The position numbers and the translations under genes were made by a program. The notes beneath the pieces were generated by a model. That model had not been told where the DNA came from and ran no database searches. It was given only the letters and a program-made list of their open reading frames with translations. A stretch of 37,007 nucleotides of DNA. Source: Bacteroidales bacterium. GTDB lineage: Bacteria; Bacteroidota; Bacteroidia; Bacteroidales; Muribaculaceae. Location of the stretch: the NCBI GenBank assembly GCA_014800735.1, contig JAAVFP010000023.1:84139-121145 (forward strand). The letters are read 5' to 3'. Positions 14,078 through 30,873 of the stretch are shown piece by piece. Each line of letters starts with the position of its first letter. Position 1 is the stretch's first letter.

Positions 14078-14151
14078 CGCTTCAAGATGGACTCGAACCA
14101 ACGACCCTCTGATTAACAGTCAGATGCTCTAACCGACTGAGCTATTGAAGC
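14078..14151 (-). tRNA. tRNA-Asn (GTT), second copy in transcript order
   Basis: Reading the minus strand the gene folds as a 74-nt cloverleaf. The acceptor pair is GCTTCAA/TTGAAGC, followed by a D arm with AGCTCAGTCGGTTAGAGC, an anticodon stem-loop CTGACTGTTAATCAG with anticodon GTT, a T arm with GGTTCGAGTCC, and discriminator G as expected for tRNA-Asn. CCA is not encoded (CAC follows). It is identical to the copy at 14188-14261 and shares its promoter and terminator. Confidence 0.97.
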
Positions 14152-14187: not shown

Positions 14188-14261
14188 CGCTTCAAGATGG
14201 ACTCGAACCAACGACCCTCTGATTAACAGTCAGATGCTCTAACCGACTGAGCTATTGAAGC
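14188..14261 (-). tRNA. tRNA-Asn (GTT), first copy in transcript order
   Basis: Same 74-nt sequence as 14078-14151, with a 36-bp unrelated spacer between them. Acceptor GCTTCAA/TTGAAGC, anticodon GTT, discriminator G, no encoded CCA. It lies about 30 nt downstream of a -7 element at 14294. Confidence 0.97.
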
Positions 14262-29108: not shown

Positions 29109-29664
29109 CTATGTAGTGACGTATATCACGCCGCGCGCCGTAAGCTGCCGTAATTTTTCATAGTCGATATATGCGCGGTCCATTGCCATTATGTCGCCTT
29201 TGCTCAAGGTTGTAGGTTTGAGCATAAAGGAGTCATTTGTAGCGGCTGAGGTGAACTTTATATCCGACGGCACAACTTCGTTGGCATGTATTACGGTATG
29301 CACCTTGATTCCGCCCTTCTTTTTCCCAGTCTTTGGATGACGTCCGACTCCATTGAATAGAAGGTTTGAGAACAGTGTGATGGTCGTGGAATCGATAATC
29401 TGCAGCCGTTTCATCCATTCTCGCGCAACGAGTCAAACGCATGATAATAGCATAAAGCATCACAACCAGGTGGATCCAGCAATTGAAGCGTTTGGTGTAC
29501 CTCTCTCCGCCGTTTTCACGGCTGAACTGAAGAATTTTTGACTTGTCAAGCAATTTTATCACCTGACCATAGAGCGGCTGTCCGCTAAAATGACTATTTT
29601 TGCGCATCGGTTGTTTTTGATTTTTGGCGAAACCAAGATAACCAAAAAGGGTCGAATCCTGCAA
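29109..29664 (-). pseudogene. IS4-type (DUF4372) transposase remnant
   Basis: The 5' part encodes the DUF4372-like N domain of an IS4-family transposase (NSHFSGQPLYGQVIKLLDKSKILQFSRENGGERYTKRFNCWIHLVVMLYAIIMR). After this the frame shifts by one base (relatives have MRFDSLRE) and a central block of roughly 80 codons is missing. A second frame then continues with WMKRLQIIDSTTITLFSNLLF, RHPKTGKKKGGIKVHT and SFMLKPTTLSKGDIMAMDRAYIDY, which includes DDE-type Asp residues. It ends early at GVIYVTT, next to the sulfatase terminator. It is non-functional. A hairpin of AGGGTC/GACCCT (29648-29678) lies at the upstream edge; no clear terminal inverted repeats or target duplication remain. Confidence 0.85.
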
Positions 29665-29973: not shown

Positions 29974-30597
29974 TTACTCCTTTTTGTCAAGCGGTATCTG
30001 AGCTATTACCTTGCCGTCTATGCTTAGATAATAGGTTTCTTCTTTTACTGAGTAGCCTACTTTCTCTCTTTTGCCGATATTGGGTTCCACGGTTGTAAAG
30101 AAGAACGTGCTTGGCATAAAGTCGCCGAACATTTGGTCGTAAATTCCAGCATCTTCCACTTCTACCTTGTCGGAATCCAAGAGTTTCCAATCACAGTTGC
30201 TTATGAAAAAGGTTTCGTTGGAGTTATTCTTTATTGTTAGAGAGAATATCAAGTTAAGACCATCATTAGGGATTCTCTTTACTTGAATGTTGTCGAAGGA
30301 GATTTTCACATCAGCATTACTATAACGCATTGTGTAGACTGAGCCAATTGATAGTACGGGAATTTCCGCAGGTTTTCCCTCTGCTTTTTCGGAAACCTTT
30401 TGCTCCTCGTTTGCTTCTTTCAACGTTGAGTTATTCTCCATGATAGAAGCTCCGATGAACACGCAGATAATAAATACTCCGAGATAAATCAAAGCTACTT
30501 TACCTCTTGACTTACACATTACCGTAGCAGGCTTGAATATACCCACTACGAATGCCAGAAATGATAGTACGGCAATAATTCTTAAAACTGTTTCCAT
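29974..30597 (-). CDS. Two-TM protein with DUF4352-like extracytoplasmic domain
   Basis: The 207-aa protein has two N-terminal membrane segments (about 5-21 IAVLSFLAFVVGIF and 33-50 VALIYLGVFIICVFIGA) and a charged linker. An immunoglobulin-like beta domain (about 85-207) has DVKISFDNIQVKRI, LNLIFSLTIKNNSNETFFISNCDWKLLDSDKVEV and a C-terminal YYLSIDGKVIAQIPL. This pattern is typical of DUF4352/TelA-like domains on membrane proteins of unknown role. It is AT-rich compared with the chromosome. Its start codon lies in the 3' arm of a 10-bp hairpin, and a ~240-nt structured leader precedes it. Confidence 0.65.
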   Translation of the reverse strand: METVLRIIAVLSFLAFVVGIFKPATVMCKSRGKVALIYLGVFIICVFIGASIMENNSTLKEANEEQKVSEKAEGKPAEIPVLSIGSVYTMRYSNADVKISFDNIQVKRIPNDGLNLIFSLTIKNNSNETFFISNCDWKLLDSDKVEVEDAGIYDQMFGDFMPSTFFFTTVEPNIGKREKVGYSVKEETYYLSIDGKVIAQIPLDKKE

Positions 30598-30836
30598 TTT
30601 ACATATTTAGGTTAGACAATGTTCTGTAAAATGGCAACGATACATACGAAAGACGTAGAACCGAAGCCCAACGTCGTCGAGGCCTACCACAGCCAACTTT
30701 CCCATGAGCATGGTTCTACGTTATACGCGTAGACATACCTCACCCATTGGGAAAGTTATCGGAAAGCCTTATCTTATATCAAGGTGGTAGTTCGACGACG
30801 ATTAGGCTATATGTCACAAACAGGATAATCTGTTTG
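30598..30836 (-). ncRNA. Candidate structured 5' leader RNA, pseudoknotted, unknown class
   Basis: Several long perfect helices fall in 240 nt. C: 30672-30680 with 30792-30800 (9 bp), plus 30684-30690 with 30784-30790 (7 bp). B: 30695-30704 with 30748-30757 (10 bp, one extra G-U on the minus-strand RNA), inside C. A: 30653-30662 with 30712-30721 (10 bp), which crosses both C and B and would make a pseudoknot or an alternative fold. A hairpin 30715-30720/30728-30733 competes with A. A 5' hairpin CAAACAG/CTGTTTG lies at 30817-30836. Finally 30625-30634 pairs perfectly with 30594-30603 over 10 bp, burying the ATG (30595-30597) of the downstream gene. A -33/-7 promoter ends at 30842. This fits a cis-regulatory RNA; no known class is recognised. 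Confidence 0.5.
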
Positions 30837-30841
30837 CGGAA

Positions 30842-30873
30842 CAAAATTAGTTATTTTTATTAAGATAAACAAA
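30842..30873 (-). promoter_or_regulatory. Promoter of the structured leader
   Basis: On the minus strand TTTG (30870-30873), exactly 20 bp, then TAATTTTG (30842-30849), followed by TTCCGC. It overlaps the start region of the divergent small gene at 30876. Confidence 0.7.

Follow-up and report, generated by a model that had tools for sequence, protein, structure and literature searches.

What kind of element is the structured leader that precedes a small membrane-protein gene in a Muribaculaceae genome, and what could it do for that gene? The window analysed here is a stretch of 37,007 nucleotides from a Bacteroidales bacterium (contig JAAVFP010000023.1), and the leader runs on its minus strand from about position 30873 to 30594, 5′ of the gene. 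Our main reading, to which we give a probability of roughly 60%, is that the mRNA begins with a cis-acting RNA switch, probably operating by transcription attenuation. The 248-nucleotide leader RNA folds at −89.8 kcal/mol, compared with −59.1 ± 5.0 kcal/mol for 200 dinucleotide shuffles (z = −6.1). The opposite (plus) strand is nearly as stable (z = −5.6), as expected of a helical region, so the strand is not set by folding alone; it is decided by the promoter, the orientation of the gene and the homologues.

The 5′-most element is a Bacteroidota-type promoter (30842..30873, minus strand), which is exact, as an earlier sequence-only reading had stated: TTTG at 30873–30870, a 20-base spacer and TAATTTTG at 30849–30842. 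A 5′ hairpin stands at the predicted transcript start (30817–30823 with 30830–30836, 7 of 7 pairs); judged by eye and not by count, 5′ hairpins of relatives such as L002 look alike. The double-pseudoknot core (30653..30810, minus strand) was recovered by cmsearch at 52.5 bits (E = 7 × 10−10) with R2, a covariance model of 33 Prevotella-type copies from which the window sequence had been left out. Its helices, all on the minus strand, are P0 (30804–30808 with 30765–30769, 5 of 5 pairs), P1 (30792–30800 with 30672–30680, 9 of 9), P1b (CUACCAC at 30784–30790 with GUGGUAG at 30684–30690, 7 of 7), P2 (30748–30757 with 30695–30704, 10 of 10), the local hairpin P3 (30728–30733 with 30715–30720, 6 of 6), the long-range helix PK (30712–30721 with 30653–30662, 10 of 10), P5, which continues PK (30705–30709 with 30666–30670, five pairs, one of them G-U), and P4 (GGC at 30692–30694 with GCC at 30681–30683, 3 of 3), which flanks the 3′ strand of P1b. 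From 5′ to 3′ the strands follow one another as 5′ hairpin, P0 5′, P1 5′, P1b 5′, P0 3′, P2 5′, P3 5′, P3 3′ (which is also PK 5′), P5 5′, P2 3′, P4, P1b 3′, P4′, P1 3′, P5 3′, PK 3′ and a U-rich stretch; P0 thus crosses P1, and PK with P5 crosses P2, P1b and P1.

PK, P2 and P1 are the helices A, B and C of the sequence-only reading, and the helices it named are exact in the window sequence. Its helix A does cross B and C, PK spanning strands of P2 and P1. Its helix list was incomplete: it had overlooked P0, P5 and P4, whose window versions are short and which relatives brought to light. The gene behind the leader (29974..30597, minus strand) encodes a 207-amino-acid, membrane-type protein that is DUF4352-like; its match to Pfam PF11611 (E = 6.4 × 10−5, 23.7 bits) lies under the 25.9 cut-off. 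Just downstream of this gene is a remnant of a DDE transposase (PF01609, E = 1.2 × 10−12, 101 amino acids; 29109–29414, minus strand).

The family is absent from Rfam 15, the RNA family library searched. A cmscan of the whole window returned no family at its gathering score except three tRNAs, and no relevant match near the leader at E values up to 10; 14 member loci gave one tRNA only, and 11 further member loci gave none at E ≤ 0.1. The sequence-only reading knew of no leader class with this arrangement, and neither the leader nor the member loci scanned matched a known family other than tRNA. Two of the tRNA genes lie side by side (14078–14151 and 14188–14261, minus strand) and have identical Rfam scores. 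No RNA in the published descriptions compared was recognised as the leader RNA. A paper of 2017 in NAR reportedly describes 224 candidate RNAs.

Relatives are scattered. A DNA search of 48 other genomes of the window's genus found no relative of the leader. The search of 397 genomes of the taxonomic family admitted E values up to 1 and scored two candidates per genome; the matches in 273 of the 397 were mostly chance short matches, and only four further long ones were kept (L002–L005, 72–78% identity, E below 10−12). Of 393 genomes from the order, 7 gave a match to R1, a covariance model built from three of these four with no pseudoknot in it; one of the 7 is the window's own genome. A pattern describing the conserved core occurs in at least 118 stretches of GTDB genomes, where about 4 are reckoned by chance for random DNA of the size of the scan, and in 4 viral contigs of IMG/VR. 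In the sample of the order it matched 6 of 393 genomes, and a reversed control pattern had zero among the matches listed. One pattern match, L155, is set aside as a probable chance match, without leader context. R2 was run against the window and 96 of the 122 pattern loci, and at E ≤ 0.001 it matched 87 of these 97 sources; L043, L049, L063, L085, L090, L096, L104, L110, L121 and L128 had no match. In a sample of the phylum R2 matched 2 of 395 genomes; among the matches listed, scoring covered 7 of the several hundred candidates in each genome, and the figure is therefore no measure of distribution.

By record label, 67 of the 80 pattern loci listed belong to Bacteroidota. The other 13 carry the labels Kiritimatiellota, Lentisphaerota, Verrucomicrobia, Phycisphaerae, Nitrospiraceae and Delongbacteria, with two Clostridia-labelled bins. 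Six of these 13 pass R2 at E ≤ 0.001 (L040, L058, L077, L098, L099 and L105; the E values, such as 9 × 10−4 for L077, are rough), five were searched and failed that threshold (L063, L085, L090, L096 and L110), and two lie outside the R2 search (L056 and L078). The score of L040 resembles that of a Prevotella copy, and its bin assignment may be wrong. The window's genome has a single copy, and among eight genomes picked as carriers one has seven. That genome (G1176, with L062 and L068) is a 2.2-Mb Prevotella metagenome-assembled genome, several of whose copies have a divergent P1b, mostly compensated. BLASTN searches of phages and plasmids with the window leader, of phages with L004 and of plasmids with L066 found none. 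Taken together, these comparisons indicate an RNA family of more than 100 copies, mostly from gut and rumen bacteria, with relatives in the window's taxonomic family and order.

Do the proposed helices covary? PK and P5 are part of no model used, and in A7, a sequence-only alignment of 33 rows (out of 35 copies passing the filter), they are paired in 97.7% of 428 cells compared with 90.0% in shuffled alignments, with double changes at 9 of 13 pairs; none of 500 shuffles did as well on any of the five measures, and versions of PK and P5 slid along the sequence pair in only 21–51%. PK alone is paired in 98.1% of cells and P3 in 95.8%, and 4 of 5 P5 pairs have double changes. For the nested helices 86.0% of cells are paired compared with 71.3% after shuffling, and covariation is 0.418 compared with 0.188 (0 of 500 shuffles); their pairs with double changes (20 compared with 18.7; 127 of 500) and further pair types (55 compared with 53.3; 158 of 500) are not above shuffles. 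When all 11,325 column pairs of A7 were ranked by corrected covariation, a P1b pair came first, P5 pairs took ranks 2, 17, 20 and 40, PK rank 12 and P3 ranks 21, 29 and 32; about half of the top 40 lie outside the proposed helices, and low ranks fall to several pairs of P1 and PK. A second alignment, of 88 rows fitted to R2, leans toward P1, P2, P1b and P3, and the top 21 of its 11,935 pairs all belong to these helices; PK, which was not fitted, takes ranks 24 and 35. P0 is paired in 82.4% of 454 cells of these rows and is the weakest helix, which appears only modestly supported.

A strand-swap test, which is independent of any alignment, points the same way. Exchanging strands between 117 distinct copies lowers complementarity from 22.9 to 16.0 for PK, from 21.1 to 11.9 for P1, from 19.8 to 13.4 for P2 and, slightly, from 16.4 to 14.8 for P0. 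(The strand-swap, U-rich, start-codon and ORF counts and, within the terminator analyses, the main count of first arms and the first count of hairpins leave out copies that repeat the internal sequence of another or lie too close to the end of a contig.) The apparent invariance of P1b partly reflects selection, because the pattern that yielded most copies fixes this region; copies found by model only vary in P1b, mostly with compensation. A11, a set including such copies, has compensated changes at 5 of the 7 P1b pairs, a variable P4 pair that is C-G in 16, U-A in 5 and U-G in 1, and PK and P5 paired in 93.9% and 90.0%, respectively. The sequence-only reading had staked its case on covariation of helices A–C among homologues, and these helices do covary. 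Because independent tests agree, that this is a real RNA family or class is nearly sure.

The conserved letters GAA, GGY and RCC adjoin P1b. Ribozymes, too, typically have double pseudoknots and a core with conserved letters, and the two crossing elements together with these letters would suit a self-cleaving ribozyme. We consider this very improbable: no Rfam family matched, ribozyme families included; the core is larger than most small ribozymes; and the exclusivity of PK and P3 and the U-run suggest regulation. The idea that this is an integron attC site or a similar DNA element can be dismissed with still greater assurance. The core boxes of attC sites read RYYYAAC/GTTRRRY, and the outer P1 of L003 (1501–1677) reads box-like, GCCTAAC ... 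GTTAGGC, but P1 varies in sequence with compensation across the family and does not form conserved boxes, and an attC site would leave the crossing helices, the promoter box and the U-run unexplained. We judge the likeness in L003 a coincidence.

The strand that PK and P3 have in common is central to the switch reading. The 3′ strand of P3 is the 5′ strand of PK, so that P3 and PK are mutually exclusive. The pair of columns joining P3 5′ to PK 3′, rank 14 in A7, corresponds to no helix and is a three-strand signature: if P3 and PK are alternatives it is expected, because the outer strands would each covary with the strand for which they compete. The sequence-only reading had seen a two-state logic in TCTACG (30715–30720), which can pair either way, and the family supports it because P3 and PK share a strand and both covary. 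On these grounds we regard a two-state switch as likely.

A second set of alternatives involves the other end of PK. In the 7 nucleotides after PK at least four are U in 95 of 107 copies, compared with 13 at a control position. A terminator-like hairpin stands directly before the U-run in 44 of 110 copies, compared with 13.2 ± 3.1 in shuffled sequences and 27.1 ± 3.2 of 110 at the same site when the 5′ part is swapped between copies, by a criterion chosen after examples had been seen; 66 of 110 have no such hairpin by this criterion. Its 3′ arm is the tail of PK and its 5′ arm is the 3′ strand of P1b or P1. The window's own U-rich stretch (30646..30652, minus strand; CUUUCGU) is weak. With P3 and PK, these hairpins amount to mutually exclusive structures of the kind found in a riboswitch expression platform. 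In Prevotella-type copies such as L066, L083 and L134 the conserved PK-tail sequence GUCUGC is also complementary to GUAGGC in the 3′ strand of P1b, and the constancy of both may be explained by each complementing the other.

In a smaller group the PK tail is instead the first arm of a full terminator near the start codon. By a strict count this holds for 6 of 117 copies (L044, L051, L075, L109, L128 and L136) and by a looser criterion for three more (L069, L072 and L095), and all nine precede genes of DNA-modification or defence type: C5 methylases (L051, L069, L095 and L128), D12 methylases (L072 and L075), an HNH endonuclease (L109), an AIPR protein (L136) and an AAA_5 protein (L044). A McrB-like hit falls in one member in a database list that gives no locus, and we take the AAA_5 protein of L044 to be of the McrB kind. 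This subgroup holds every C5 and D12 methylase counted downstream of the family. In L128 the ATG comes almost immediately after the U-run, and L121 is a tenth copy with the first-arm arrangement by the looser criterion. Because both arrangements use the PK tail, the core fold and the terminator would be mutually exclusive. We lean slightly towards transcription attenuation as the output in most copies, and place the polarity, with the folded core as the on state, at even odds.

Could the output instead be burial of the start codon, which the sequence-only reading had proposed for the window? The 10-base-pair helix it named is present and is longer than described, pairing 30625–30638 with 30590–30603 (minus strand; 13 of 14 pairs) around the AUG at 30597–30595. 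At 9 of 11 subfamily loci examined, the window included, a second hairpin brings the AUG into a stem or next to one; at these nine at most 2 of 100 shuffles were as good, and they precede three gene families that have no mutual BLAST similarity. L033 and L159 are without the lock, with 17 and 81 of 100 shuffles as good, respectively; the start used for L159 lies upstream of the one homologous to the start of L003. For the class as a whole, the surroundings of the start codon show no unusual degree of structure (mean z = −0.46; 10 of 81 below −2), and we rejected start-codon sequestration as a general feature. The buried start codon is thus a property of the window's subfamily and not of the class. 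Termination is, on this comparison, the better-supported general output, and control of translation may add to it or replace it in the window's subfamily.

A TAnnTTTG box occurs in the interval from −110 to −20 before AACTNCCAC in 75 of 122 copies (all copies, duplicates included). On the opposite strand 4 copies have one, and the control intervals give 7 of 121, 2 of 113 and, behind the core, 5 of 116; the spacing in the window falls within the main peak of the family. A same-strand ORF of at least 80 amino acids begins within 165 nucleotides in 72 of 85 copies, compared with 43 of 85 random places and 19 of 85 in divergent orientation. Ten of the remaining 13 copies have an ATG-started same-strand ORF of at least 80 amino acids within about 450 nucleotides, the exceptions being L138, L144 and L155. 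The promoter box, the covariation and the downstream ORFs together point to a conserved structured domain at a predicted 5′ UTR, a trait of riboswitches.

The genes behind related leaders are homologous: that of the window to those of L050 (46% identity) and L149 (50%), that of L002 to that of L033 (66%), and those of L003–L005 to those of L157–L160 (62–100%), with nothing at E = 10−3 in BLASTP between the three groups. Leader and gene are, by this comparison, kept together across separate genomes. L157–L160, which are the IMG/VR viral contigs, precede a gene starting MVTIRHNID or MVTIKHNID, as L003–L005 do, and because of this shared gene it may be that prophages or other mobile elements carry the leader with them. 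A stand-alone, trans-acting RNA of about 180 nucleotides with its end at the U-run, its downstream gene a by-product of read-through, would account for the family's own promoter box, for the U-rich stretch that ends the core and for the terminator-like hairpins. We think such a small RNA unlikely: 72 of 85 copies have a gene close behind on the same strand and 10 of the other 13 have one further on, promoter boxes are scarce behind the core, related leaders retain homologous genes and the AUG lock recurs. That the RNA acts in cis on the downstream gene is, from these arrangements, highly probable.

Which genes would it control? Signal-peptide-like products are found downstream in 62 of 102 cases, compared with 28 of 113 controls, by a simple ad hoc rule; the control proteins, here and in the Pfam comparison, come from the longest ORFs at distances above 2 kb and are unmatched in kind. 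We scanned 94 of 96 downstream proteins (the short L135 and L155 were dropped) and found 64 Pfam families, the commonest of them in 4; the first 25 of the 64 are considered here. These include four C5 DNA methylases, two D12 methylases, one type III methylation subunit, one AIPR protein, one Nmad3, one MetK and four BspA-like repeat proteins, and NCBIfam and PADLOC matches agree. Among 90 of the 113 control proteins scanned there are 125 families, the commonest 25 of which contain no DNA methylase; Nmad3 and HSDR_N are present in the controls, so the neighbourhoods themselves may be rich in such genes. We considered S-adenosylmethionine (SAM) as a ligand, given MetK behind L053 and the four C5 and two D12 methylases, and did not adopt it, because most other downstream genes do not fit.

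As a whole the downstream genes share no common pathway among the first 25 families of each list. This, with the 5′ hairpin and the strong fold, would be compatible with a static 5′-UTR structure, one that does not switch and serves to stabilise the mRNA or to bind a protein. We consider this no more probable than the small RNA, as two exclusive helices on one strand both covary and terminator-like alternatives occur above control.

We therefore return to the cis-acting switch, in which the PK tail strand would be the control strand. In the core fold the tail would be held in PK. With the core unfolded, in many copies it would pair with the 3′ strand of P1b or P1 to give a terminator-like hairpin before the U-rich stretch; in the subgroup before DNA-modification and defence genes the freed tail would become the first arm of a full terminator near the start codon. 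A terminator, once formed, would stop transcription and leave the gene off, whereas a folded core would allow read-through and leave it on. In the window's subfamily an additional hairpin would hide the start codon. More tentatively, and with the odds somewhat against it, the family could be a multi-phylum riboswitch class, mainly of Bacteroidota but occurring also in some bins of Kiritimatiellota, Lentisphaerota and Planctomycetota. The 3′ strand of PK would then be the terminator control strand, and surface proteins and a DNA-methylase and anti-phage subgroup would come under one common signal. Such a family, absent from Rfam, would reveal a layer of control over the surface and restriction/modification genes of dominant gut bacteria. 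Should the pseudoknot strand double as the terminator strand, this would be a compact switch design, and what signal it senses would become a direct question.

How does the family compare with known RNAs? Candidate RNAs of Bacteroidota published in 2010 (Bacteroidales-1, Bacteroides-1, Flavo-1 and others) were likewise found by comparison and come from the same phylum; in the portion of that report compared, those with Rfam entries do not match the leader RNA, and Bacteroides-2, which has no Rfam number, lies outside the comparison (PMC2864571). The HMP2 candidate structured RNAs of human microbiomes include some Bacteroidetes and Prevotella candidates, which may overlap with the family; the main text mentions no pseudoknot (PMC8040213). 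Closer in design, as far as excerpts of their descriptions go, are the fluoride, preQ1 and ZTP riboswitches, transcription-attenuating RNAs with pseudoknotted aptamers, which share with the leader RNA the position in a 5′ leader, a pseudoknotted core and competition with a terminator-like hairpin by strand displacement. The leader RNA differs from them in its sequence, its core of about 160 nucleotides, its lack of an Rfam match and the lack of a common metabolic gene in the lists compared. No thiamin family, as would recall the HMP-PP (thiS) riboswitch, is among the first 25 downstream families in two lists. That riboswitch is described as having an aptamer embedded in the terminator (PMC6478431), and aptamer and terminator have strands in common as they would here; in the leader RNA, by contrast, it is a long-range pseudoknot whose 3′ strand would be shared.
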